64,000 bases of DNA, taken from Mesorhizobium shangrilense (GTDB lineage: Bacteria; Pseudomonadota; Alphaproteobacteria; Rhizobiales; Rhizobiaceae). A program made the position numbers and the translations under genes. The DNA is taken from positions 2,976,001 through 3,040,000 of the forward strand of contig NZ_JBEWSZ010000001.1 of the NCBI RefSeq assembly GCF_040537815.1, given 5' to 3'. The notes beneath the pieces are model-generated. The model did no database searches, was not told the origin of the DNA, and saw only the letters and a program-made list of their open reading frames with translations. This document shows positions 9,433 through 63,334 of the stretch, one piece after another (positions within the stretch are counted from its first letter, which is position 1; each line of letters begins with the position of its first letter).

Positions 9433-10650
9433 TTACGAGGCGAACTGGCTCAAATCTCGCCAATAGCTGTCCGGTGGCGGGCCCCAGTCCGTCAGCACGC
9501 AGGAATAGACGGCGGTTTCATCAAAGGGATAACGCGCCTCCATGTCGGGGGTGAGCGTCAGGCCGAGTCCCGGTGCGGTTGGACGGATCAGACGGCCGTT
9601 CTCGATGCGCCCCTGGTCGCCGATCATTTCGGCGCCGAGCGGAAAATACAGCATCGGATACTCGACCAGCTTACCGCCTGCGGCGAAGGCGGCGTGATAG
9701 CTGGCCATGATCGCGGCGGCACCGCCCCAGGCATGCACGACCACGTCGGTGCCCTTGGCCCTGGCCGCTTCGAACACGTCCATGACCGCCGAAATTCCAC
9801 CCATCACCGAGGCGTCGGGCTGGACGAAATCATAGACGTCGGCGTTGATGCGCTCGATCATTTCCTTGGGCGTGGTGACGATCTCGCCGCCGCACACCGG
9901 CACATCGATACGACCACGCAGTTCACGAAAGGCATCGGGCTGGTCGGGGCCAAGCGCCTCCTCGACAAACACCATACGCCGGTCGGTGATGGCGTGTACG
10001 GCTTCTACAAAGGCCACGACATCGTCTACCGCCTGCGGCGGATCGGCAAGGTTCTGGCACATGTCGACGCCGACCTTGATGCCGCGCCGGCCGGCCTCTT
10101 CCAGCACCCAGGCCGTGCGCAGGATATCGCGCTTGACCGAACGGATCTTGTAGATCTCGATGCCGAGCGAACCCAGCATGTCCAGTTCGCGCAGGAACTG
10201 TTCCTTGGCATCGCAACAGCCGCCCGAACCGTAGATCTCGATCGATTGGGCCTGAGCCCCGCCGAGAAGCTCGTATACAGGGATACCCAGGCTCTTGGCC
10301 TTGGCGTCCTGCAAGGCAATCTCGAAGGCCGCGATGACGTGGCGCGCTGCGCCCTGAAGCGACCAGTAATCGCACAGGCTGCGAAGGTCCTTGACCCGAC
10401 GATCGATGTCGAAGCCATCGCGGCCCATCACCTGCGGGCGGCAAAGGTCGACGATCGCCTGGAACACCAGCGGTGCGAAGACGGCGAGATAGCCTTCGCC
10501 CAGCCCGGTTACGCCATTGTCCAGCGTCACCTCCACCATGCCGATGGTGCGCTTGGGCCCATTGGGGAAGCATTCCTTGATTTCCGGATCGTCCGCATCG
10601 GCATAGGGCGACGACAGCAGGACGCAGCGGATGTTGGTGATCTCAGCCAT
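9433..10650 (-). CDS. Mandelate racemase/enolase superfamily protein (probable acid-sugar dehydratase)
   Basis: This 405-residue protein has an N-terminal capping domain and a C-terminal TIM barrel. Metal ligands of the superfamily are visible at Asp196 (GVD), Glu230/Glu231 (FVEEA) and Glu256 (GGE). The base motif after strand 2 reads K168-I-R170, not the usual KxK, and His306 lies in VVHAWGG. A metal-dependent proton abstraction followed by dehydration or epimerisation of a carboxylate is expected. It is the last gene of the aldolase-ABC-dehydrogenase operon and overlaps the 2-hydroxyacid dehydrogenase gene by 1 nt (TGATG). Substrate not assignable. Confidence 0.9.
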   Translation of the reverse strand: MAEITNIRCVLLSSPYADADDPEIKECFPNGPKRTIGMVEVTLDNGVTGLGEGYLAVFAPLVFQAIVDLCRPQVMGRDGFDIDRRVKDLRSLCDYWSLQGAARHVIAAFEIALQDAKAKSLGIPVYELLGGAQAQSIEIYGSGGCCDAKEQFLRELDMLGSLGIEIYKIRSVKRDILRTAWVLEEAGRRGIKVGVDMCQNLADPPQAVDDVVAFVEAVHAITDRRMVFVEEALGPDQPDAFRELRGRIDVPVCGGEIVTTPKEMIERINADVYDFVQPDASVMGGISAVMDVFEAARAKGTDVVVHAWGGAAAIMASYHAAFAAGGKLVEYPMLYFPLGAEMIGDQGRIENGRLIRPTAPGLGLTLTPDMEARYPFDETAVYSCVLTDWGPPPDSYWRDLSQFAS

Positions 10651-11555
10651 CAGTATCCTCGTGAAAAATCGACGACGCCTTCGAGCGGCATGCCGGTGCG
10701 AAAGCGCGCCAGGTTTGCCAGGAAGATGTCGATCTTGCGGTCGAGTTCATCCATCGTGCCACCGCCGGAATGCTGCGTCAGGATGATGTTGGGGCAGGTC
10801 CAGAACCTGTGCCCCGCCGGCAATGGCTCGTCGCGGGTCACATCGATCACCGCGCCGCCAAGCCGGCCTTGTTCAAGGGCGTCGGCGAGCGCGTCCTCGT
10901 CCAGGATCGAGCCCCGCCCGAAATTGCAGAAAAGCGCCCCTGGAGGCAATTTGGCCAGTCGGGCAGCGTCGAAAAGACCCGACGTGGCGGGAGTGGCCGG
11001 CGCCGTGCAAACGACCAGATCGGCATCGGCAAGCGCCTTGTCCAGCCCCGCGATCCCCTCGCGCGTGATCGGCGTGATCGCGCAGCCGAATGGCGCCAGC
11101 AGTTCAGCCAGCCGCCGGTTGATCGCACCATAGCCGAACAGGACGACGCGCGACCCGCGCAGCACGCGCAGGCGCGTGCGCAAGGGATCGCCAAGCCACT
11201 GTTTGCCCGCTTGCAGAAGCACCAGGCGGTCGATGCCCCGATAGAGCGCCAGAATGCCGGCAAGCGCCGATTCCGCGACCGGGTCGGCAAAGAAGCCGGC
11301 AAGGTTGGTGACCAGTGTCTCGCCGTGACCGCGCTTCCAGTCGAGGCCAGCATATTCGCCGAACCCCACCGATTCCAGTTGCAGCCAGCGCAGGTTCTGG
11401 TTTGCCGCGACCTTGTCAGGCTCGGGGTTGCCGAAAACGATCGCGCAGTCGCTGTCAGCCTCGGCCGCCACCAGCCTGACTGGAAAATCGCCCGCACCGA
11501 GCTTGAGCCGCGCCACCTGCTCGTGCGAAAATTCGCCGCAAACGCCGATTTCCAT
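10650..11555 (-). CDS. 2-hydroxyacid dehydrogenase family protein
   Basis: This 301-residue NAD(P)-dependent oxidoreductase belongs to the D-2-hydroxyacid dehydrogenase superfamily. The nucleotide motif is GYGAIN at residues 141-146, so the third glycine of GxGxxG is Asn, as in some divergent members. Candidate catalytic residues are Arg214 (GRG), Glu243 (RDEP) and His262 (QHSGG). The start is either ATG 11555 (TGATG overlap with the aldehyde dehydrogenase stop) or GTG 11558. It is probably coupled to the aldehyde dehydrogenase and enolase proteins of the same operon. Confidence 0.88.
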   Translation of the reverse strand: MEIGVCGEFSHEQVARLKLGAGDFPVRLVAAEADSDCAIVFGNPEPDKVAANQNLRWLQLESVGFGEYAGLDWKRGHGETLVTNLAGFFADPVAESALAGILALYRGIDRLVLLQAGKQWLGDPLRTRLRVLRGSRVVLFGYGAINRRLAELLAPFGCAITPITREGIAGLDKALADADLVVCTAPATPATSGLFDAARLAKLPPGALFCNFGRGSILDEDALADALEQGRLGGAVIDVTRDEPLPAGHRFWTCPNIILTQHSGGGTMDELDRKIDIFLANLARFRTGMPLEGVVDFSRGY

Positions 11556-50450: not shown

Positions 50451-51980
50451 TCAGCGCCAGTTTGAGGCGCGCCAGGCCGGCGCGTCGCCGGCATACCGGT
50501 TGAGCCCCACATCCTCCTCCGAGGCACGGCGGTGGATTTCGGCAAAGAAGGGATCGAACACTCTGTTGAGCCGTTCAAGCTCTGCATGCTCGGTCAGAAG
50601 GGCGGGCACCGTCTCGCGTACTTCAGCGAAGATTGCGGCCTCGTCGACGGTGGTCAGGCGACCATCGCGCATGACGATTTCGCCCGCCACCATGACCATC
50701 TCGATCGACGATCCGTTCTCCGAAAACACCAGATGCTTGTCGATGTCGTTGAGCGGCATAAACGCATAGGTGTCGAGATCGAGCATGATCAGGTCTGCCG
50801 CCTTGCCCACGGTGAGCGAGCCGGTAATGTCCTCCAGCATGGCGCTGCGGGCGCCATTGATCGTCGCCATGCGAAGAATGTCGGCAGCCGGAATCCATGT
50901 TCCATAGTCGGGACCCGAGGCACTGTGGATCAGACCGGCAACCCGCATCACGTCGAAGATGCGGGCAGTATCATTGGACGACACGCCGTCGGTGCCGAGC
51001 GCCACCGTGACGCCGGCATCCATCAGGCGACGGATGGGCGCGATGCCAGCGCCAAGCTTCTGATTGGAAACGGCATTGTGGGCGATCGAGCATCCTGCCT
51101 TACCCATCAGCTCCATGTCTTCGTCGGTAACCCAGACCGAATGGGCGATGGTGGTGTTGCGGTCGAGCATACCAAGTTCGTGCATGTAAGCGACAAGGGT
51201 CTTGTCGAACATCAGGTGCCCCGTGATCGCCTGGGTCTTGGTTTCAAGCACGTGGGTGTGCAGCGGCACCCGCATTTTCAGCGCCAGGTCGTGACAGGCG
51301 ACCAGCAGATCGGGTGTGCAGCGTTGCGGCGCGGATGGGGCGATCATGAAGTTGAGACGGCCGGCCATGCCATGCAGTGACGAAAAGGCCGAGCGGCAAT
51401 AGTCGACATAGGTTTCGGCACTGATAGGCGGTCCAAAATCGAGCTTGTCCTGCAGCGCCTGCGGGAGGACTTCGCGGGCGTAGGGCAGCGCATCGAGCGT
51501 GTGCACATTCATCACCGCACTCGACACATTGGCGCGAATGCCGGCGTCCTTGTAGGCCCTGAATACGGTGCCGAGACGCTCGAGATCATGCGCCGGCGGA
51601 TCGAAGAAATCATCGCACAAGGTCGTCACGCCGTTGCGCAGCGACTCCATGGCCAGCAGCAGTGTGCGCAGGTAGAGCAGACGCGGCGCAATCGCCGGAC
51701 CCATGAGCAGCGGATAGGCATAGAGCAACCAGACCTCGAGCGGCATGTTCTGGTAGCGGCCGCGCAAGAAGGTCTCACTGGAATGGGTATGGCCGTTGAT
51801 GAGCCCCGGCATCACCAGCTTTCGTTGTCCCTCGATGATCCGTGCGTCGGGCGCGGCAACCAGGTTCTTGCCGATGGCGGCAATGACCACGCCGTCGATG
51901 AGGATGTCTCCGGCAATTGGGACGGCCCCTTCGGGTCCGTCCATGGTCAAAAGCGTGGCGTTGCGGATCAGCGTTTGCAT
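50451..51980 (-). CDS. Amidohydrolase family protein (ATZ/TRZ, cytosine/adenosine deaminase-like)
   Basis: This 509-residue metal-dependent hydrolase has the N-terminal metal motif GHTHSS (His64, His66), a third His in HTHVLETKTQ, another in IAHSVWVTDED and the Asp in ALGTDGVSSND. These match the deaminase subtype acting on guanine-, adenosine- or triazine-like rings. It lies 10 nt after a nucleoside-type ABC permease gene and is the last gene of the operon. Deamination or hydrolysis of an imported heterocycle is the best guess. Confidence 0.9.
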   Translation of the reverse strand: MQTLIRNATLLTMDGPEGAVPIAGDILIDGVVIAAIGKNLVAAPDARIIEGQRKLVMPGLINGHTHSSETFLRGRYQNMPLEVWLLYAYPLLMGPAIAPRLLYLRTLLLAMESLRNGVTTLCDDFFDPPAHDLERLGTVFRAYKDAGIRANVSSAVMNVHTLDALPYAREVLPQALQDKLDFGPPISAETYVDYCRSAFSSLHGMAGRLNFMIAPSAPQRCTPDLLVACHDLALKMRVPLHTHVLETKTQAITGHLMFDKTLVAYMHELGMLDRNTTIAHSVWVTDEDMELMGKAGCSIAHNAVSNQKLGAGIAPIRRLMDAGVTVALGTDGVSSNDTARIFDVMRVAGLIHSASGPDYGTWIPAADILRMATINGARSAMLEDITGSLTVGKAADLIMLDLDTYAFMPLNDIDKHLVFSENGSSIEMVMVAGEIVMRDGRLTTVDEAAIFAEVRETVPALLTEHAELERLNRVFDPFFAEIHRRASEEDVGLNRYAGDAPAWRASNWR

Positions 51981-51989
51981 ATGGGTATC

Positions 51990-52883
51990 CTAGTAATCGC
52001 GCAGTTCAGCGAAGCCGGTGGCCGCCTTGTGCCCGCCGCGCAGCTTGCCGCTGAGCCAGACGCCGAACACCGTTGCCATGTAAGGCAGGGCCAGGAGCAG
52101 GTCGTGTGGAACGGCATCGCCGAACAGCAACTGCGCGCGAATGCCGACGGCGGCGACCACGGAGAAGAACAGCGCCGCAAATGCAGAGCCGATTGGATGC
52201 GCCGCACCGAAAATTACCGCCGCGAAGGCCATGAAGCCGCGTCCCGCCGTCATGTTCTGGGCATAGATCTGCAGGCTGCCAGCAGCCAGTTCGGCCCCTC
52301 CGATGGCGCAAAGCACCCCGCCAATGATCAGCGCCAAAAGCCGCATGCGCGAGGGATTGGCGCCGACGCTGCGGGCTGCGAAGGGGTGCTCGCCCGAAGC
52401 CGCCAGCCGCAGCCCGAAGCGCGTGCGTCGCAGCAGAACCCACATGGCGAAAACCACCAAGGGCATCGCCAGCACGAAGACCGACAGCACCCCGAAAGGC
52501 CCGAAGGCCGGACCGAGCCTGGGCACACCGAAGGGCGCGGTGACGGCGGCCTGGCTGCCGAAGATGGCCTGGACGGCGAGCGACGTGCCGCCGAGGCCGA
52601 GGCCGGTCAATCCAAGGCCGGCGATGATCGGATTGGCCCTGAGCTTTTCGATGACGAACCACAGCAGCACCGAGGCCAGCACACACAGCACGATGGCAAT
52701 CAGCATCGCCAGCGCGAACGAGCCGGTCAGCACGATGCCGACAATCGTCGCGCATGCGCCGATGATCATCAGGCCCTCGAGGCCCAGATTCCATATGCCG
52801 GCGCGCTGCGCGACAACACCCGCCATGGTGACATAGATGAGCGGCGTGCCCGAACGCAGGATGGCGACAATGACGTCGTTCAT
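51990..52883 (-). CDS. ABC transporter permease, nucleoside/BMP type (second permease)
   Basis: This 297-residue membrane protein belongs to the branched-chain amino acid/ribose permease superfamily as found in NupQ/YufQ-type nucleoside importers (IWNLGLEGLMIIGACATIVG near the start; GANPSRMRLLALIIGGVLCA later). The ATG at 52883 overlaps the stop of the partner permease by 4 nt. It works with the neighbouring permease, the two-domain ATPase and the BMP-family lipoprotein-like binding protein. Confidence 0.92.
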   Translation of the reverse strand: MNDVIVAILRSGTPLIYVTMAGVVAQRAGIWNLGLEGLMIIGACATIVGIVLTGSFALAMLIAIVLCVLASVLLWFVIEKLRANPIIAGLGLTGLGLGGTSLAVQAIFGSQAAVTAPFGVPRLGPAFGPFGVLSVFVLAMPLVVFAMWVLLRRTRFGLRLAASGEHPFAARSVGANPSRMRLLALIIGGVLCAIGGAELAAGSLQIYAQNMTAGRGFMAFAAVIFGAAHPIGSAFAALFFSVVAAVGIRAQLLFGDAVPHDLLLALPYMATVFGVWLSGKLRGGHKAATGFAELRDY

Positions 52884-53917
52884 GCCGATCTCCTCCCGAA
52901 CGCCAGAAGGCGGTCGACAAAGCCGGATTTGGCCGTGATGAAAAGCGCAATCGCGGCATTGATGATTTCGATGGCCGACGAAGGCAGGCCTGCCATGATC
53001 GGCAGATAGAGCGCGGCCGAGGCCAACCCGCCAAAGAACAGCGAGACGAAGGCCGTGCCGACCACCGACAAATTGGCGACCAGCGCGATCAGGATCGCGG
53101 TGAAGCCGTGTGTCGGCAGGAATCCGCCGGCCAGACGGCCGTTGGGGCCCATGAACTCGATGGTGCCGGCAAGGCCCGCCAAGGCTCCGGAGATCAGAAA
53201 GCTGGAAAGGCCCAAACGCCAGACTGTTGCGCCCTGCCACTGCACCATGGTCGGGTTACGCCCGGCAAGGCTGGCCAGAACGCCGAAGGCGGTGCGGTTG
53301 ACCAGAAGCCACATCGCCACCGCGACCAGTGCGGCGATCACGATAATGGTCGGCGACAGACCCAGTGAATCCGAAATACGATAGGAGGCGGCGAGCGGTC
53401 GGCTGGAGGCCTGCTGACCCGAACCCGACGGGTCCTTGAGCGGACCGGCCGTGACATAGACCAGCAGGAGCCCGGCGAGGAAATTACCCATCAAGGTAGT
53501 TATCACCTCGTCAGTGCCGGACTGCAGGCGCAGCAGCCCCGGCCACAAGGCCCAGAGCGCCCCACCTGTCATGCCGGCTGCAAAGCAGGCCGGAATAACG
53601 ACGAAGGCGGGCGCGCCATTGAGCCACTCGGCCACAAAGGCGGCGGAGATGGCGCCGAGGTAGAACTGGCCCTGCGCGCCGATGTTGAAGTAGCCGGCGC
53701 GGAAAGAAATGCCGACACCGGCGGCGGTGATGAACAGCGGCAGCGCCCAACGCAGGCTCTGCTCCCACGCGCCTGGCCGGAAGAACGCGCCCTCTATGAC
53801 ACTGCGGAACATGCCGAGCGCCGAATAGCCGGCGAACTGGAAAATGACGCCGCACAGCGCCAGGGCCACGACGATAAAGATCAGCCCGCGCAAGACCGAA
53901 ACGAATTTGCCCGTCAT
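52880..53917 (-). CDS. ABC transporter permease, nucleoside/BMP type (first permease)
   Basis: This 345-residue membrane protein of the NupP/YufP class has a first helix at GLIFIVVALALCGVIFQFAG and FRAGYFNIGAQGQFYLGAIS, typical of the family. The ATG at 53917 overlaps the ATPase stop by 4 nt. It forms the channel with the permease at 51990. Confidence 0.92.
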   Translation of the reverse strand: MTGKFVSVLRGLIFIVVALALCGVIFQFAGYSALGMFRSVIEGAFFRPGAWEQSLRWALPLFITAAGVGISFRAGYFNIGAQGQFYLGAISAAFVAEWLNGAPAFVVIPACFAAGMTGGALWALWPGLLRLQSGTDEVITTLMGNFLAGLLLVYVTAGPLKDPSGSGQQASSRPLAASYRISDSLGLSPTIIVIAALVAVAMWLLVNRTAFGVLASLAGRNPTMVQWQGATVWRLGLSSFLISGALAGLAGTIEFMGPNGRLAGGFLPTHGFTAILIALVANLSVVGTAFVSLFFGGLASAALYLPIMAGLPSSAIEIINAAIALFITAKSGFVDRLLAFGRRSA

Positions 53918-55482
53918 TGGGAAACTCCCGTCATGGCCGCGCCGACGGCGCCGATCTGATAGGGTGCCGAAAATGTGCCAGCGACCTCTCCCGACAGCAT
54001 GACGACGACCCGGTCGCTGATGTCGAAAAGCTCGTCGAGGTCAGAGGAGATCAAGAGCACGCCGCAGCCACGCTCGCGTGCCTCTCGCAGCGATTGCCAG
54101 ACAAAGGCCGTCGCGCCGATGTCGAGCCCTCTTGTCGGCTGTGCGGCGATGATCAGCTTCGCATCGGCATCGACCTCGCGCGCCAAAATCACCTTCTGGG
54201 CATTGCCGCCCGACAGCGAGCCCGCCTTCTGGCTGGTGGTCGCATAATGCACGCCCCACGCTTGAAGCGCCTCGTCACAGCGCTTCTTCAGCCGCGCCGG
54301 ATTGATGGCGCGCAGCAATGGCGATTGCAACAATTCACGCGCCGACCAATTCTCCCACAGGCTGCTCGACAGGCTTAAGCCCTCGGTATTGCGCTCGAAG
54401 GGAATGATGCGCAGGCCGGCGGCTCGGCGGCGCGCCAGCGGTGCGCTCGTGACATCGATCCCGCCCACCGAAAGCGTGCCATCCGTCGCGTCGACAAGAT
54501 TAGCTATGGCCCGCACCAAGGTTCGCTGGCCGTTGCCCTCGACCCCTGCAATGCCGACAATCTCGCCGGCTTTGATTGTGAGCGAAAGATCGCGCAAGGC
54601 AGGCCCTTCGGTGTCGCCCAGCGTGGAGACGCCGCGCATGTCGAGGACCAGCCCTGCATCGACCGGGGTGTCGTGGTTGGCTGTATGCGCGTCGGGAGCG
54701 CCCTGCCCGGTTGCCGCGTCGGTATCACCCGGCGCAAGGGTCTTGGCGATGGCCGGGCCGACGATCATTTCGGCGAGACGCTTGGCATCGATCTTGGCGC
54801 AGGCCACTGGCCCGTCGACAAGCCTGCCGCCGCGCAGCACGCTGACCGTGTCGGCAATCGCCAGCACCTCGCGAATCTTGTGCAGGATGAGGATCACTGT
54901 GACCCCGCGATCCCTGAGCTTGAGCACCCGCTCGAACAGCGTCTCGATCCCGGAAGGCGAAAGCACCGCTGTCGGCTCATCGAGGATCAGAACCTTGGCG
55001 TCGGCGACAAGCGCGCGGGCGATCTCGATACCCTGCTGCGTCTCAACCGGCAGGTCGCGCACCCGGCGCTTCGGATCGACATTGACGTCGAGGCTTTTGA
55101 GATGCGGCGCCCAGCGCTTCTGCAGCGCTGAGCGGGTGAAAATAGCGGCGTCCCTGTCCGACCCGAACTCCATGGCTTCCGCCACGGTGAAGGACGGCGG
55201 CAAGGCAAAGCTCTGGTGCACGAGCTCGACGCCAGCGGCGCGCGCGTCCTTGACCTTGCCAGTCTTGACGTGCTGGCCGTTGATCCTGAGTTCGCCCGCA
55301 GCCGGCCGGACAAGTCCGGCCGCGACACGGGCGAAGGTGGTTTTTCCCGCGCCGTTCTGGCCGACCACGGCGTGGATCTTGCCCTGTTCGAAGGCGATGC
55401 CCACACCCGAGAGGGCCATGACGCTGCCATAGGCCACGGTAATGTCACGACATTCGAGTGCGGGATTGCCCATCGGGGTCAT
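53914..55482 (-). CDS. ABC transporter ATP-binding protein with two nucleotide-binding domains
   Basis: This 522-residue tandem ATPase is of the RbsA/NupO type. The first domain has VGQNGAGKTTF (Walker A), LPVETQQGIEIARALVADAK as the signature region and LILDEPTAVL (Walker B). The second domain has a degenerate Walker A (GVEGNGQRT) and LSGGNAQKVILAREV. This asymmetry is normal for the family. The ATG at 55482 is 30 nt from the binding-protein stop. It energises the two permeases that follow. Confidence 0.93.
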   Translation of the reverse strand: MTPMGNPALECRDITVAYGSVMALSGVGIAFEQGKIHAVVGQNGAGKTTFARVAAGLVRPAAGELRINGQHVKTGKVKDARAAGVELVHQSFALPPSFTVAEAMEFGSDRDAAIFTRSALQKRWAPHLKSLDVNVDPKRRVRDLPVETQQGIEIARALVADAKVLILDEPTAVLSPSGIETLFERVLKLRDRGVTVILILHKIREVLAIADTVSVLRGGRLVDGPVACAKIDAKRLAEMIVGPAIAKTLAPGDTDAATGQGAPDAHTANHDTPVDAGLVLDMRGVSTLGDTEGPALRDLSLTIKAGEIVGIAGVEGNGQRTLVRAIANLVDATDGTLSVGGIDVTSAPLARRRAAGLRIIPFERNTEGLSLSSSLWENWSARELLQSPLLRAINPARLKKRCDEALQAWGVHYATTSQKAGSLSGGNAQKVILAREVDADAKLIIAAQPTRGLDIGATAFVWQSLREARERGCGVLLISSDLDELFDISDRVVVMLSGEVAGTFSAPYQIGAVGAAMTGVSQ

Positions 55483-55512: not shown

Positions 55513-56580
55513 TCAGAGGGTGGTGTTGAAGGGCACGACGATAGAACCGTCGAGAATGCCGGCCTTGGTCTTCTCGATCTCAGCCCAGATTTCCTTGGAC
55601 TTGGCAACCCGATCCGCCGGGCCCTGCTCGGCATAAAGCGGTGACAGCTCGAATTCGACCACACCGGTGCCCAGGCCAGTTGCGACATGGGTGCCGCCGG
55701 CCCATTGCGCGCCAAGCGCCTTGCCAACCTCGTTGTAGAGGGACTGCCCGAAATCGAGGCTGACGATGCCGACGATCGACTTCGGACCAAGGGGATATTG
55801 CGCGCGTGCAAGGGTGGAGAGCATGCGCCCAGCGCCCTCGTTGGCCGCCGCAATGATGCCGCCGTCGGTCGCCGCCGAGTCGGTCTGGATGTAGTCGATG
55901 CCGTTGTTGAACATTTGCGCGGCGATTTCCTGGCCCTTGGCAGGATCCTGGAACGAGCCGGCAAAAGCGGCGGTGACGGTCAGATCCGGATTGACCGAAT
56001 GAGCGCCGGCCTTGAGCGCATTGAAATCGGCGTTGAGCGGGGGAATGGAGATGCCGCCGATATAGCCGATCTTGCCGCTCTTGGTCATGCGCGCGGCGAA
56101 GACGCCCGACAGATAACAACCGAGATAGTAGTCATAGGAAACGGTCACCACATTGGGTAGCGGCGGTTCGATGGCGTCGCCGAAAAGCTGGATCCACTTG
56201 GTGTTGGGATAGGACGGCGCCAGCGCCTTGAACGGCTCGCCCACCTCGTTGAAGGTCGAAACGATGACCGAGGCGCCGGCATCGGCCAGCGTGCGGAATA
56301 TGGTTTCATAGGTCGCCGGGTCCTGCGCGTAGACGACTCGCGCCTGAAGGCCCTTTTCCTTTGCCAACTGGTTGATCTTGGCGATCATCGAATCGACCGC
56401 GCTCTGGTCGCCCGCCGCCTGCGTATGCACGAGCGCGATGAACCCGTCAGCAGCATACGCCACCCTGGACAGGGCGCCGCTTACGAGGCCTAGTGCGGCA
56501 ATGCCGACCCCGGTCTTGATGAAGCCGCGGCGGTTCAATCCCACGGCAGGAACCGTGCGGTCGTCAAAATTACTCGTCAT
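55513..56580 (-). CDS. BMP-family ABC substrate-binding protein (Tat signal)
   Basis: This binding protein of about 355 residues belongs to the BMP/PnrA family, whose known members bind purine or other nucleosides. The twin-arginine motif NRRGFIKTGVGIAALG is followed by ALSRVAYA (likely cleavage). The mature part starts DGFIALVHTQAAGDQSAVDS. A start at 56589 adds three residues; AAAGGG is better spaced for 56580. It lies 130 bp after the NIPSNAP gene, a gap that could hold an internal promoter. Confidence 0.92.
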   Translation of the reverse strand: MTSNFDDRTVPAVGLNRRGFIKTGVGIAALGLVSGALSRVAYAADGFIALVHTQAAGDQSAVDSMIAKINQLAKEKGLQARVVYAQDPATYETIFRTLADAGASVIVSTFNEVGEPFKALAPSYPNTKWIQLFGDAIEPPLPNVVTVSYDYYLGCYLSGVFAARMTKSGKIGYIGGISIPPLNADFNALKAGAHSVNPDLTVTAAFAGSFQDPAKGQEIAAQMFNNGIDYIQTDSAATDGGIIAAANEGAGRMLSTLARAQYPLGPKSIVGIVSLDFGQSLYNEVGKALGAQWAGGTHVATGLGTGVVEFELSPLYAEQGPADRVAKSKEIWAEIEKTKAGILDGSIVVPFNTTL

Positions 56581-56710: not shown

Positions 56711-57031
56711 TCAGACGCCCGGGGAAAACGGCGCCGGATTCATGATCATCACGTCCTGGGACTGGATGGCGTTCAGCGCCCAGATTTCGCCGATGAATTT
56801 CTGCCACTCAGGGTCCCCATACATGGCGGCGCGGCGTGCCTCACGATCGGCGAGGCTGTCATAGCCCCACATCAGAACCGTCGTATGTAGATGCCCGATC
56901 TCGGAAACGTAGAGCCCGAGGAAACGGTTGAGGTGCTTTTTCTGCACCGGCAAACCTTCGGCCTCGTATTTCTTCATCCACGAATCGACCGTACCGGGCC
57001 GGAATGTGTAGGTGCGGTGTTCGACAATCAT
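56711..57031 (-). CDS. NIPSNAP family protein
   Basis: This 106-residue protein has the NIPSNAP ferredoxin-like pattern (MIVEHRTYTFRPGTVDSWMK, then a central VLMWGYDSLADREARRAAM). The family has no settled function; in bacterial catabolic operons members are small accessory proteins or monooxygenase-like. It lies 17 nt after the GMC oxidoreductase gene in the same operon. Confidence 0.85.
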   Translation of the reverse strand: MIVEHRTYTFRPGTVDSWMKKYEAEGLPVQKKHLNRFLGLYVSEIGHLHTTVLMWGYDSLADREARRAAMYGDPEWQKFIGEIWALNAIQSQDVMIMNPAPFSPGV

Positions 57032-57047: not shown

Positions 57048-58673
57048 TCAGGCGGCGTTCAGGATGAATTCGGCGCATTTTTCACCGATCATGATCGCTG
57101 GCGCATTGGTGTTGCCGCTGGAAATGATCGGCATGATTGAGGCGTCGGCGACGCGCAAGCCGTCGATGCCGTGAACCCTGAGGCGCGCGTCGACGACGGC
57201 CCACTCGTCGTTGCCCATCTTGCATGTGCCGACCGGATGGAACGTCGTCATGGCGGTCGCCTTCAGCCACTCGACGAGATCGGCATCGGTCTCGACCTGC
57301 GGACCGGGCGCGAGCTCGCGCCCGCGATAGGCGTCGAATGCGGGCTGGTTGATGATCTCGCGCGTCAGCCGAATGCCGGCGATCATGGTTTGACGGTCAA
57401 ATTCGGTCTCGAGATAGTTGGCCTGGATTCTGGGCGGCATCCTGGGATCGGCGGATGCCAGCGTGATGGCGCCCCGGCTCTCGGGGTTGACGGGCCCTAC
57501 CCGCAGCGTAAAGCCATGATTGGCTTCGACAGCCGCGCGTTTGAACGGATTGGGAAAGTGCAGGTTCGCGGTCTTTTCCAGGGCTGGCATGAAATGCAGC
57601 TGAATATCGGGCGCGACCAGATCCGACCTCGACTTGATAAACGCGCCGGCCTCATACGGGAATGTCGTGGTGATGCCGCGGCCGAACAACATGCCTTCGA
57701 CAAGCGACCAAGTCAGCCTGTCGACGCGCAGGTCGCTGAACAGCGTGATCGGCTGGGTGCATTCGTAGGACAAGACGCAATCGACGTGGTCCTGCAGGTT
57801 CTTGCCGACGCCGGGCAAATTGTGAATTGGCTTGATGCCATGCTCTGCAAGCTCGTTGGCAGGCCCGATACCCGACAGCAAAAGGATCTGGGGTGAATTC
57901 ACCGCGCCGGCGCTGACAACGACTTCGCGTTCGGCTTGAGCAATATGCAGCGCGCCGTTATGGGTGAACTCGACACCCCTGGCTCGGCCGTCGGCGACGA
58001 TGATCCGCTGGGTCAGCGCTTTGGTCAGGACGGTCAGGTTCTTGCGTCCGGCAATGGGGCGCAGGAAAGCATACGAGGTCGACCAGCGCTTGCCGTCCTT
58101 GATGGTGAAGTCGAATTTGCCGAAGCCTTCCTGTTCATCGCCATTGAAGTCGTCGTTCATCGGATAGCCGGCTTCCGCGCCCGCTGCCGAGAACACATCG
58201 AGCAGCGGGTTCCAGCCGCGCGCCCGGCAGACAGTCAGCTCACCCTCGGTGCCATGTGGGGCATCCTTGCGCTGAATGTGCCCTTCCGACCTGCGGAAGG
58301 CCGGCAGCACATCCTCATAGGACCAACCGGGCAGCCCCATTTGAGCCCAGCGGTCGTAGTCGTGGCGGTTGCCGCGCACATAGATCATGCCGTTGATGGT
58401 GGACGAGCCGCCCAATGCCTTGCCGCGCGGCCAATAGAGGGAGCGGTTGTTGAGAAAGGGCTCCGGTTCCGTATGATAATGCCAGTTGTAGATGCCAGAC
58501 TGGAACAGCTTGCCCATCAGCATGGGCAGCCGGAACAGTGGATTGGAATCCCGGCCGCCCGCTTCCAGCAACAGCACCTTGTGGTCGGGATTGGCGGACA
58601 GCCGGTTGGCCAGAACGCAACCGGCCGAGCCGGCGCCGACGATGATGAAATCGTAGGTCTCGGTCGAAGGCAT
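57048..58673 (-). CDS. GMC-family oxidoreductase (choline dehydrogenase-like)
   Basis: This 541-residue FAD enzyme has the ADP-binding motif IIVGAGSAGCVLANRLS (residues 9-25), GMC signature 1 (GKALGGSSTINGMIYVRG), signature 2 (GAVNSPQILLLSGIGP) and active-site His in HPVGTCKMG. The ATG at 58673 gives MPSTETYDFII. It oxidises an alcohol to an aldehyde or ketone and lies directly after the UDG-like gene (4 nt gap). Substrate unknown; choline is only one option. Confidence 0.92.
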   Translation of the reverse strand: MPSTETYDFIIVGAGSAGCVLANRLSANPDHKVLLLEAGGRDSNPLFRLPMLMGKLFQSGIYNWHYHTEPEPFLNNRSLYWPRGKALGGSSTINGMIYVRGNRHDYDRWAQMGLPGWSYEDVLPAFRRSEGHIQRKDAPHGTEGELTVCRARGWNPLLDVFSAAGAEAGYPMNDDFNGDEQEGFGKFDFTIKDGKRWSTSYAFLRPIAGRKNLTVLTKALTQRIIVADGRARGVEFTHNGALHIAQAEREVVVSAGAVNSPQILLLSGIGPANELAEHGIKPIHNLPGVGKNLQDHVDCVLSYECTQPITLFSDLRVDRLTWSLVEGMLFGRGITTTFPYEAGAFIKSRSDLVAPDIQLHFMPALEKTANLHFPNPFKRAAVEANHGFTLRVGPVNPESRGAITLASADPRMPPRIQANYLETEFDRQTMIAGIRLTREIINQPAFDAYRGRELAPGPQVETDADLVEWLKATAMTTFHPVGTCKMGNDEWAVVDARLRVHGIDGLRVADASIMPIISSGNTNAPAIMIGEKCAEFILNAA

Positions 58674-58677
58674 GGCG

Positions 58678-59529
58678 TCACCACGCGACGGGCTTGGCAC
58701 CCATCGCCTCCAGATATTGGTTGCAAAGCAAGAATGGGTTTTCGAGCGCCAGAACCGCGTCGGCGCGCGCGGGATGGTCGCGCACAATGCAGGCGCACAG
58801 CGCATGCTGGCCTTCAGTTATGCCTGCCAGGGCAAGCGTTTGCGCAGCAGCGTCGCCAAAGCCGATAAAGACGATCGGAGCACGACGACCAGCGAGGTGG
58901 CGCAGCACCTGGAGCATTAGCGGACGCCACAGAGGCAGATGACCGCGCGACTGGTGCGCGTCAATCTCGACCTTGAAGCGAGACAGCGTCAACGACGCAT
59001 TGAGAAGCAAAACACCGTCGTCGACCCATCGCTGGGCCAGCGCATCAGCACTCTCGATATCGACCTTGCCGTCCTCAATGGCGGCAAGCGTCGCCGGCCA
59101 ATCGGCGAAGGACTGGGCATAGGCGAGATTGCCGGTGCGCGCCGCGACGATCTGCTGGGTGAAGGCGCGAATGCTCTTGGAGAACATTTTGTCGAGCTCG
59201 CGCCAGGCAGCGACATTGCCTGCCTCGAAGGCGCGGCCGGTGGAAAAGCCGGGCTCTGGATAGGGGTCTTGGCCCAGGATCACGCAGCGCACATCCTCCG
59301 GCGCAATTCCGTCGAAGGCGCGCAGCATATGCGCTCCTTTTGGTGCGCCGGGAAACAGCTTGTCGCGCCGCGCCGGAAAAATCGGCTCCCAAGGCTCGAG
59401 TTCGAGCGTTGGGTCCATGGCATCGAAATCCAGCGACACGGCGCCAAGGGCGGCCCGCCAGGCCGGAGCGATGTCGCCGTGCCAACCCGCCAGGGTTTCG
59501 ATCATCGCGGACCTGAGTTGAACCGGCAT
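58678..59529 (-). CDS. Uracil-DNA glycosylase superfamily protein in a catabolic operon
   Basis: This 283-residue protein has the family 1 UDG motifs in order: GQDPYP at 86-91 with the water-activating Asp88, LLLNASLTLS with Asn177, FIGFGDAAAQ, and RDHPARAD with His252 in place of HPSPLS. The stretch near NPFLLCNQYLEAMG matches the UDG C-terminus. The uracil-stacking region after the first motif (GRAFEAGNVAAWREL) is unlike canonical UDG. It is the first gene of the operon with the GMC oxidoreductase, NIPSNAP, nucleoside-type importer and deaminase-like genes, controlled by a RutR-like regulator. It may act on DNA or on a free base or nucleoside. Confidence 0.85.
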   Translation of the reverse strand: MPVQLRSAMIETLAGWHGDIAPAWRAALGAVSLDFDAMDPTLELEPWEPIFPARRDKLFPGAPKGAHMLRAFDGIAPEDVRCVILGQDPYPEPGFSTGRAFEAGNVAAWRELDKMFSKSIRAFTQQIVAARTGNLAYAQSFADWPATLAAIEDGKVDIESADALAQRWVDDGVLLLNASLTLSRFKVEIDAHQSRGHLPLWRPLMLQVLRHLAGRRAPIVFIGFGDAAAQTLALAGITEGQHALCACIVRDHPARADAVLALENPFLLCNQYLEAMGAKPVAW

Positions 59530-59568
59530 TGCGGCGACGCCCCTCCCTTTGGCTTCCCAACGATCGGG

Positions 59569-59598
59569 ACGTTACAAATAACCTGACCAAAGTGTCAA
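59569..59598 (-). promoter_or_regulatory. Candidate promoter of the UDG-like operon, overlapped by an operator
   Basis: On the minus strand a perfect -35 TTGACA (59598-59593) is followed after 18 bp by TAACGT (59574-59569). The operator at 59584-59597 covers most of the -35 box and the start of the spacer, so a bound repressor would exclude RNA polymerase. Confidence 0.55.
59584..59597. promoter_or_regulatory. RutR-like operator 1 (TGAC-N6-GTCA)
   Basis: TGAC CAAAGT GTCA. The known RutR consensus has TGAC and GTCA half-sites with a 6-bp centre inside a 16-bp dyad. The site lies between the divergent UDG-like and TetR genes and overlaps the -35 box of the former. Confidence 0.6.
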
Positions 59599-59617
59599 CT
59601 TCCAAAATCACAAAAGC

Positions 59618-59631
59618 TGACCGTATCGTCA
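59618..59631. promoter_or_regulatory. RutR-like operator 2 (TGAC-N6-GTCA)
   Basis: TGAC CGTATC GTCA; with one more base on each side the dyad reads CTGAC-N6-GTCAG. It is centred 34 bp from operator 1, upstream of the candidate TetR promoter. Confidence 0.6.
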
Positions 59632-59660
59632 GTTTTTTTTGCAAACACCGCGGCCCTGTA

Positions 59661-59689
59661 TTGGGTAGGTTTTCGAAGGGTGCTATAGA
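59661..59689 (+). promoter_or_regulatory. Candidate promoter of the TetR (RutR-like) gene
   Basis: TTGGGT (59661-59666) and TATAGA (59684-59689) are separated by 17 bp, a good -35/-10 arrangement, about 35 bp upstream of the ATG at 59724. Confidence 0.45.
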
Positions 59690-59723
59690 GCCGCTGCAAT
59701 ACAGGCAGTGGGGCGGAGCGGAT

Positions 59724-60374
59724 ATGGCGGGACAGAAGGCGGCGCGCCGGGGCGGCAAGAACCCGGAAGACAAGGTCGGTGCCAGGAACCGGGAGAAAAT
59801 CCTGCGCGCGGCGGTCGACGTGTTCGCCCGCAAGGGTCTCGATGGCACGCGTATTCAGGAAATCGCCGACCAGTGCGGCCTGCCCAAGGCCAATGTCTAT
59901 TACTATTTTTCGACCAAGCAGGAGATTTACACCCACGTGATCGAGCATCTGCTGACCGGGTGGGACAAGGCGTTCGAGCACATCACACCGGATCGCGATC
60001 CGCGCGAGGCCATTGCAGTTTATGTCCGTGCCAAGCTCGACTACTCACGCAAGCACGCAGCCGAGTCGCGTTTCTTTGCCAACGAAATGTTGCGGGGCGC
60101 CCACTTCCTGAGCAAGCAGCAGAAACTTCATATGCAGCGGGTGACGCGCGAGCGGTCCGCCGTTGTCGAGGGCTGGGTGCGCGACGGCAAGATGGCGCCC
60201 GTCGATGCGCGGCATTTCTTCATCATGCTGTGGGCGGCGACGCAGTTCTACGGCGACTTCGAGCCACTAGCCGCCAATGCGCTCGAAAAGAGCAAACTCG
60301 CCAAGGCCGACTACGACGCAGCGGCCGACACCATTACAACCATCGTTCTCAACGGGTGCGGGGTCTCAGCCTGA
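59724..60374 (+). CDS. TetR/AcrR regulator, RutR-like
   Basis: This 216-residue repressor has a TetR helix-turn-helix near residues 25-70 (GTRIQEIADQCGLPKANVYY). Its effector domain resembles RutR of Escherichia coli, the pyrimidine regulator: YVRAKLDYSRKHAAESRFFA, VVEGWVRDGKMAPVDARHFF and MLWAATQFYGDF. GGAG lies 6 nt before the ATG at 59724. It is divergent from the UDG-like/nucleoside importer operon, and the shared region has two TGAC-N6-GTCA dyads. Binding of uracil, thymine or another nucleobase-like inducer is inferred from the family. Confidence 0.92.
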   Translation: MAGQKAARRGGKNPEDKVGARNREKILRAAVDVFARKGLDGTRIQEIADQCGLPKANVYYYFSTKQEIYTHVIEHLLTGWDKAFEHITPDRDPREAIAVYVRAKLDYSRKHAAESRFFANEMLRGAHFLSKQQKLHMQRVTRERSAVVEGWVRDGKMAPVDARHFFIMLWAATQFYGDFEPLAANALEKSKLAKADYDAAADTITTIVLNGCGVSA

Positions 60375-62083: not shown

Positions 62084-63334
62084 TTGCCCATTGTCGATCT
62101 TCGCGCCACCACCATCACCGTTCCGCTCGAGGCGCCGCTCCGGCATTCGATGGGTGCGCATTGGGGCCGGTTTGTTCGCACGATCGTCGAGGTCATCGAC
62201 GACCAAGGCCGTTCCGGATTCGGCGAGATGGGCGGCGGTGGAGAGTCGGCAGAAAATGCGGTTCGCAGTCTTCTGCCCTATCTCAAAGGCCATGACCCAT
62301 TGCAGCTGGAGCAGCTGCGCTGGAAAATCATGAACCCGACGGCGAGTCTCTACAACAATCGCGTTCAAGTTCACGCGGCGTTGGAAATGGCTTGTCTTGA
62401 CCTTGCGGGCAAGACGCTCGGCGTGAGGGCCTGCGACCTGTTGGGCGGAGCTGTCAGGGAGCGCATCCCCTTCGCCTCTTACTTGTTCTACCGCTACGCT
62501 GATCAGGTGACAGGCACCGGCGGGGAGACGACCGCTGACGACATGGTGGCGCACGCACGCGATCTTAAGGCCAAATATGGCTTCAAGACGCATAAGCTGA
62601 AAGGCGGACATTTCGCGCCCGACCACGATGTTGACGTCTTGCACGCGCTGGGTGCTGCCTTTCCCTGCGACGGGCTTCGCCTTGACCCAAATGGCGCCTG
62701 GAGCGTTGAACAGGCGATCCGCGTCGGACACGCCATCGAGCGCCTGAACAACGAATATTTCGAAGACCCGACCTGGGGTTTGGAAGGGATGCGCCGCGTT
62801 CGCCAGTTCGTCCGAATTCCCACCGCAACGAACACAGTCGTTGTCAATTTCGAGCAACTGGCGCAATCCATCCGCCATGACCTTGTCGACGTCATTCTGC
62901 TCGACACAACTTTCTGGGGCGGTCTTCGGCAAGCCTACAAGGCCGGCACCGTGTTGGAGACATTCCAGTACGGCGCATCGGTTCACAGCTCCGGCGAACT
63001 TGGCGTTCAACTAGCCTCCATGCTGCATCTTGGTGCGGCTTTGCCGAACCTCTCTTTTGCAGCCGATGCGCATTACCATCACTTGACGGACGACATTATC
63101 GTCGGCGGCAAGATGACCTACCGCGACGGTATGATTGACGTGCCCAAAGGCCCCGGCCTTGGCGTCGAAGTCGATCGCGAGAAACTCGCCTGCTATGCCG
63201 AACTCTTCAAGGAGCTTGGCGGGTACGCCTATGATCGCGATCCGGGCCGGCCGGGCTGGTATTCAACCCTACCGGAATTCCGCTTCGCTGATCCCGCTCT
63301 CAAACAGGCGCCCATGGGCGGGCCGAGCCGATAA
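62084..63334 (+). CDS. Enolase superfamily protein, D-glucarate dehydratase-like
   Basis: This protein of about 416 residues has the glucarate-dehydratase-type active site: KxK at Lys171/Lys173 (HKLKGG), Asp201, Glu227 and Asn250 (TNTVVV) as metal ligands, and a candidate His301-Asp274 dyad (VHSSGELG). Asn as third ligand distinguishes this subgroup from the enolase at 9433-10650. The start is a TTG at 62084, with AAGGA 8 nt upstream. It probably dehydrates an acid sugar to a 2-keto-3-deoxy product. Confidence 0.9.

Follow-up and report, generated by a model that had tools for sequence, protein, structure and literature searches.

The closest described systems to the locus reported here are the regulator RutR, the Family-1 uracil-DNA glycosylases (UNG) and the PnrA/BMP nucleoside importers (BmpA, Lbp and TmpC), joined for sister operons by the pyrimidine nucleoside hydrolase RihA and thymidine phosphorylase. 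In the RutR-uracil structure, as described in an excerpt of PMC10891134, the ring has stacking contacts with W77 and W167 and bonds to Q171 and Y97 (via water), and Q179 from the other monomer is within contact distance of uracil; the same excerpt gives the RutR operator as palindromic and about 16 bp long. RutR regulons were reported for 68 genomes, according to a portion of PMC5343134. Here, a stretch of 64,000 nucleotides of Mesorhizobium shangrilense (contig NZ_JBEWSZ010000001.1, positions 2,976,001 to 3,040,000), referred to as the window, was analysed for a TetR gene with a YcdC/RutR-type effector domain. The gene is divergent from an eight-gene minus-strand operon encoding a UNG-like protein of the uracil-DNA glycosylase superfamily (UDG-like), a GMC oxidoreductase, a NIPSNAP protein, a BMP protein, an ABC transporter ATPase, two permeases and a TRZ/ATZ amidohydrolase. 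Overall, the TetR protein is likely to be a local repressor, of RutR descent and dedicated to the operon it faces, and this operon probably serves pyrimidine-nucleoside import and catabolism, in which the UDG-like protein would act on a small molecule.

The TetR protein and its probable paired operator

The TetR protein matched RutR structures with 134 bits over residues 11-210 of 216 and exceeded the Pfam gathering score of TetR_C_3 (PF08362; 133.1 against 25 bits), but missed both RutR equivalog cut-offs, with 170.7 against 368 bits for TIGR03613 and 150 against 230 bits for PRK15008. It shares with RutR the TetR_N and TetR_C_3 architecture, the aromatic clamp, Q171 and a palindromic operator of similar size, whereas it differs in its sub-cut-off score, in the replacement of H172 and Q179, in its separate clade and in facing an importer and catabolic operon instead of rut or car genes. 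The pocket alignment was restricted to tblastn matches 150 residues or longer, which excluded shorter TetR pieces (e.g. L029). It showed W77, Y97 and W167 in 41/41 operon TetRs and Q171 in 38/41 (E in three); the window TetR has all four. H172 was replaced by F and Q179 by L, I, V or T in all 41, whereas both residues were kept in all 40 sampled other (canonical) PF08362 relatives, drawn for the most part from the 30 PF08362 loci with the highest scores. A FastTree phylogeny of 109 sequences, from which those with three or more X were excluded, placed the operon-type TetRs in their own clade of 56, with Escherichia coli RutR outside (stem 0.53, midpoint root). None of the 56 members had H172 (F or Y instead) or Q179, and five have E at position 171.

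The own genome contains a canonical RutR paralogue at C1:620613, and a plain RutR orthologue was ruled out for the window TetR by the cut-offs, the altered pocket and the separate clade. The effector domain had been called RutR-like in the sequence-only reading of this DNA; the likeness holds in the kept W, Y, W and Q, while the name RutR does not fit the TIGR03613 score. A phylogeny against RutR had been proposed there as a check, and it gave a RutR-related protein whose clade contains neither E. coli RutR nor the canonical paralogues. The TetR protein is probably a RutR-related local repressor with a modified pyrimidine pocket and not RutR itself. With the aromatic clamp kept and H172 and Q179 replaced, we infer that DNA recognition is ancestral and that ligand recognition was altered at one edge.

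The half-sites of the E. coli RutR operator are TGAC and GTCA. These dyad letters were present at canonical RutR loci of relatives, and a palindromic TGAC/GTCA operator was also present near the window TetR gene itself. The two TGAC-N6-GTCA dyads described in the sequence-only reading, TGACCAAAGTGTCA and TGACCGTATCGTCA, were both found at the positions it gave (Table 1), and the overlap of the first with a TTGACA -35 box was seen on the minus strand (59598-59593), where TA---T lies 18 bp further. The TTGAC of this box was kept in 28/41 relatives.

All motif counts for the own genome refer to its size of 8.35 Mb. A single TGACN6GTCA was frequent (146 matches against 58 for the reversed control) and the narrower core TGACNWWNNGGTCA likewise lacked specificity. 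The extended motif AANNTGACN6GTCANNTT produced two matches, both of which are these dyads, and the control produced none. The dyad pair occurred once in the own genome; across the order, 39 of 397 genomes had it, compared to one for the control pattern. Conservation upstream of orthologous operons, on which the sequence-only reading had staked its interpretation, was borne out: allowing no more than one mismatch in each dyad, 41 of 46 upstream regions (those of 45 loci with a UDG-like gene and of the window) contained the pair. No pair was found in L032, L038, L054 and L056, and L051 had one exact dyad and no pair. The spacing was 34 bp in 34 pairs, 32 bp in five and 33 bp in two, and pairs 32-34 bp apart were located between the TetR gene and the operon in alphaproteobacteria and in Variovorax. 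In addition, the density of exact dyads in the region preceding the UDG-like gene was approximately 290 times that in the remainder of the same loci. Further dyads precede the internal BMP gene in four relatives (L097, L098, L156 and L157).

Classification covered 30 of the 42 places where a pair was found in genomes of the order, the other 12 being unclassified; 17 were at operon-type TetR, UDG or BMP genes, seven at canonical RutR and six at neither. The paired operator seems ancestral. The canonical RutR genes with the pair alongside were those of L106, L107, L122, L127, L128, L130 and L131, with tandem RutR genes in some. A common pair of TGACAGCGCTGTCA dyads was found in L116, L117, L118 and L119 with no operon or RutR match within 3 kb, and is another conserved paired element in these four genomes.

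The UDG-like enzyme and the probable substrate class

The UDG-like family search gave 952 matches among 8000 scored candidates, not all of the same subfamily. For comparison with Family-1 UNG, 56 sequences were chosen for spread (the window, 45 of the 120 listed matches and 10 loci) and set against a UNG motif list from an excerpt of PMC5538708. The window protein is 90-91% identical to those of L012 and L013 (Mesorhizobium). The features in common with UNG are the water-activating loop GQDPY, present in 56/56, the uracil pocket Phe, the LLLN Asn and the catalytic His; D88, Y90, F101 (the pocket Phe), N177 (the LLLN Asn) and H252 (the catalytic His) were all invariant. In contrast, the three DNA-binding motifs were lost. 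No Pro-rich run (PPPPS) was present in alignment columns 102-117, the GS of the Gly-Ser loop was changed to GD or GE in 48/56 sequences (position 226: D 43, A 6, E 5, S 1, K 1), and the minor-groove loop HPSPLS was changed to HPAxA(D/E) in most (HP in all 56, then A in 54, a variable position, A in 53 and D or E in 52). The UDG-like sequences further differ from UNG in invariants of their own (R99, E102, R184, Q193 and H197), in a score below the TIGR00628 (ung) cut-off (79.5 against 185.75 bits) and in their catabolic-operon setting.

A second TIGR00628 match was absent from the own genome at E ≤0.001, other UDG families not being searched. A housekeeping UNG was judged unlikely from the low family scores and the operon linkage. 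An anti-phage defence gene was rejected, as five proteins of the locus had no PADLOC match. The loss of the loops is suggestive of a protein that does not bind DNA, and a free nucleoside is proposed as the substrate of the UDG-like enzyme instead.

The BMP protein has the Pfam Bmp domain of the PnrA/BMP importers (134.3 against 24.1 bits). The thymidine site of BmpA is listed in an excerpt of PMC13325309 as D24, F27, F151, F176, D225 and K242; D24 and F176 were kept (F176 in 55/55), and D225 was kept in 36/55 relatives, with A in the window. The best NCBIfam matches of the four importer proteins were "putative B6 ABC transporter" models, all far under cut-off (46.9 against 400, 383.2 against 670, 145.3 against 400 and 78.5 against 465 bits), and the GMC protein scored 484.3 bits for choline dehydrogenase, pyridoxine 4-oxidase (248.3 bits) being one among many GMC relatives. 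On these scores a vitamin B6 importer is unlikely.

Comparison of 54 importer operons with permease 2 showed a largely constant core order and variable ends; core-gene matches below 38% identity and SDR, P450 and ENO matches below 45% were ignored, ENO being a working label. The UDG, GMC and NIPSNAP genes were all present in 48 operons and all absent in five, with NIPSNAP alone undetected in one, so that UDG was accompanied by GMC in 49/49 and by NIPSNAP in 48/49. A nucleoside hydrolase and/or thymidine phosphorylase was found in 23 of the 52 operons with a readable end. It was present in all five without UDG (L152, L153, L154, L166 and L170) compared to 18 of 47 with UDG (Fisher p 0.013, relatedness ignored and loci drawn from several search routes). 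The three hydrolases tested had RihA (pyrimidine ribonucleoside hydrolase) as best NCBIfam match, with 276.8-304.4 bits, below the cut-off of 433. The two thymidine phosphorylases passed PRK05820 (520.8 and 501.2 against 269 bits) but were below the cut-off of TIGR02643 (528.7 and 518.2 against 570.7 bits).

Because RihA-like hydrolase and thymidine phosphorylase genes adjoin the same importer, the most likely substrate is a pyrimidine nucleoside, and probably a modified one. These neighbours would be reconciled with the altered BMP pocket if the base or sugar were modified; the candidates considered, namely 5-hydroxymethyl-pyrimidine nucleosides, 2'-O-methyl nucleosides and arabinosides, are not separable by the present data. 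Cytochrome P450 genes of one family, 61% identical to each other, were found in the importer operons of L097 (6701-7894) and L170 (2903-4075). In L170, a pTi record of an Agrobacterium larrymoorei plasmid, the P450 gene occurs with ferredoxin, FAD oxidoreductase and nucleoside hydrolase genes. The P450 genes of these two operons would fit an extra oxidation.

Distribution and layout of the locus

With the own genome counted, the importer was found at E ≤1e-80 in 19/397 genomes of the order and in 2/385 genomes of the class sample, and the UDG-like gene in 7/199 close relatives. The named loci were mostly of Rhizobiaceae type, with others from Rhodobacteraceae, Rhodospirillales, Variovorax and one gammaproteobacterial metagenome-assembled genome (MAG). 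In the plasmid collection the UDG-like gene was present in 38 records, 31 of them from Sinorhizobium; the operon surroundings were read in four (L168, L169, L171 and L172), and pSymA-type plasmids of two laboratory strains of Sinorhizobium meliloti, Rm41 and SM11, carry the operon. The linked TetR was conserved with the operon in most loci. The patchy presence and the plasmid carriage suggest a horizontal spread of the operon.

The S. meliloti AK57 record (L168, 12856-19676) has the GMC, BMP, ATPase and permease genes annotated in pieces, and each is one piece in Rm41 and SM11. An alphaproteobacterial MAG contig (L028, 1-13825) carries two UDG-GMC clusters pointing apart. Two Variovorax genomes (L054 and L056, around 10001-10852) have 41%-identical UDG-like genes without the operon, next to TPP-enzyme, xylose-isomerase-like and 3-hydroxyisobutyrate-dehydrogenase-type genes. 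Finally, in L092, L164 and L165, copies 78-79% identical to an ENO-labelled gene of the window (62084-63334, plus strand) follow the same TetR at a distance of a few kb; the neighbourhood is conserved and the pathway possibly linked.

Table 1. Features of the divergent locus, in positions of the window
Feature	Position	Strand	Basis or remark
TRZ/ATZ-type amidohydrolase, deaminase-like; motifs GHTH, HVLET, AHSVW, GTDG	50451..51980	-	profile matches
ABC permease 2	51990..52883	-	profile match
ABC permease 1	52880..53917	-	profile match
ABC ATPase, two ABC_tran stretches	53914..55482	-	profile match
BMP/PnrA-like ABC substrate-binding protein, divergent ligand pocket	55513..56577	-	profile and pocket comparison
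NIPSNAP-family protein	56711..57031	-	profile match
GMC oxidoreductase, choline-dehydrogenase-like; motifs HPVGTCKMG and NTNAP	57048..58670	-	profile matches
UNG-like protein of the UDG superfamily (283 aa) that retains the catalytic and uracil residues and has lost the DNA-binding motifs	58678..59529	-	profile and alignment
Likely operon promoter (TTGACA, 18 bp, TAACGT)	59569..59598	-	putative, from reading of the sequence
Proximal operator dyad TGACCAAAGTGTCA	59584..59597	no strand	overlaps TTGACA -35 box (59593-59598, minus)
Distal operator dyad TGACCGTATCGTCA	59618..59631	no strand	34 bp from proximal dyad, on TetR-gene side
TetR-family repressor, RutR-related (TetR_N and TetR_C_3), 216 aa	59724..60374	+	profiles, tree, pocket alignment

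Proposed mechanism and rival explanations

In the proposed mechanism, two repressor dimers would, without inducer, cover the -35 box and spacer of the operon promoter and the second site towards the TetR gene. A free base or a nucleoside with a pyrimidine ring, one edge of which is larger or less polar than that of uracil, would act as inducer and release the repressor, and the derepressed operon would import a pyrimidine nucleoside. The UDG-like enzyme, with a small molecule and not DNA as its target, would cleave the N-glycosidic bond, helped or replaced in sister operons by the nucleoside hydrolase or thymidine phosphorylase, and the cleavage products would be oxidised (GMC/NIPSNAP) and then deaminated or hydrolysed by the amidohydrolase. 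The full evolutionary form of this proposal is that a UNG-fold enzyme was recruited from DNA repair, keeping the uracil pocket and the catalytic Asp and His and shedding the three DNA-gripping motifs, and cleaves a pyrimidine nucleoside that is free and probably modified, its operon being under the control of a RutR offshoot with a pocket retuned to the same ring; we rate the chances of this as even.

Several observations weigh against the proposal. The node of the TetR clade has a support of only 0.8, and the clade is not alone in lacking H172: L094 and L095, which fall elsewhere in the tree, have A there, and the sister L093 combines F at 172 with E at 179. The hydrolase or phosphorylase coexists with UDG in the 18 of 47 operons above, so that UDG is no simple replacement, and the window operon has neither gene. 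Outside importer operons, UDG was found without GMC and NIPSNAP in L038, L050, L054 and L056 and without GMC in L032. Active UNGs may vary the intercalating Leu, according to the excerpt of PMC5538708, which tempers the case from the lost loops. In the BMP protein, which differs here from the PnrA/BMP importers, F27, F151 and K242 of BmpA were replaced in all 55 relatives (no F at 27, D at 151 in 55/55, L at 242 in 54 and A in one), and the ligand may be other than an ordinary nucleoside. The sequence-only reading had named a nucleoside importer, a name to be used with a caveat, as several residues described for nucleoside binding are lacking.

The UDG-like protein could alternatively be a true DNA glycosylase, induced to remove uracil or an analogue from DNA during uptake of nucleosides able to enter the dNTP pool, with the regulator part unchanged. 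This is unlikely, as UDG, GMC and NIPSNAP occur together or are missing together in 53 of 54 importer operons, a pattern better suited to a metabolic step than to DNA repair. It is more doubtful still that the operon degrades another heterocycle, such as a triazine-like or glycosylated compound, with the sister-operon hydrolase and phosphorylase as a side branch. The BMP pocket without several nucleoside-binding residues, an atrazine-binding protein in second place among the solved relatives of the BMP protein and the TRZ/ATZ type of the amidohydrolase are in its favour, but the RutR-type aromatic clamp and the UNG-type uracil pocket are both kept, and 23/52 operons with a readable end carry a nucleoside hydrolase or phosphorylase.

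Two further explanations concern the dyads. They could be operators of the canonical RutR paralogue, the operon being one target of a general pyrimidine regulon, and the DNA motifs are indeed alike, since canonical RutR genes of relatives carry dyad pairs (7/30 pair loci). However, no exact dyad was found in 18 kb around the own canonical RutR gene (L100), the extended motif is confined to this operon in the own genome and the linked TetR accompanies the operon in most loci, which makes this explanation improbable. That the dyads stand there by chance and without function is close to inconceivable: the single motif is common, with its 146 matches, but the conserved spaced pair (41/46 regions), the 290-fold enrichment and the genome-wide uniqueness of the extended motif mark them as non-random and rule chance out.

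The earlier observation of paired dyads between a RutR-like gene and a UDG-superfamily gene is confirmed, and its interpretation is supported and sharpened; the nucleobase-like inducer or substrate that it postulated is strengthened by the RihA-like hydrolase and thymidine phosphorylase genes of sister operons. The operon was not found described in the literature searched, with subscription journals mostly outside coverage. Three parts, namely the RutR-type sensor pocket, the UNG-type uracil pocket and the hydrolase and phosphorylase neighbours, independently point to a pyrimidine ring, and a recurring operon thereby gains a concrete substrate class. The locus combines an offshoot of RutR with an offshoot of UNG whose enzyme role is possibly new. 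Should free nucleosides prove to be what the UDG-like protein acts on, the automatically assigned name "uracil-DNA glycosylase" would be wrong for this family, which would then be an example of a repair enzyme turned catabolic.
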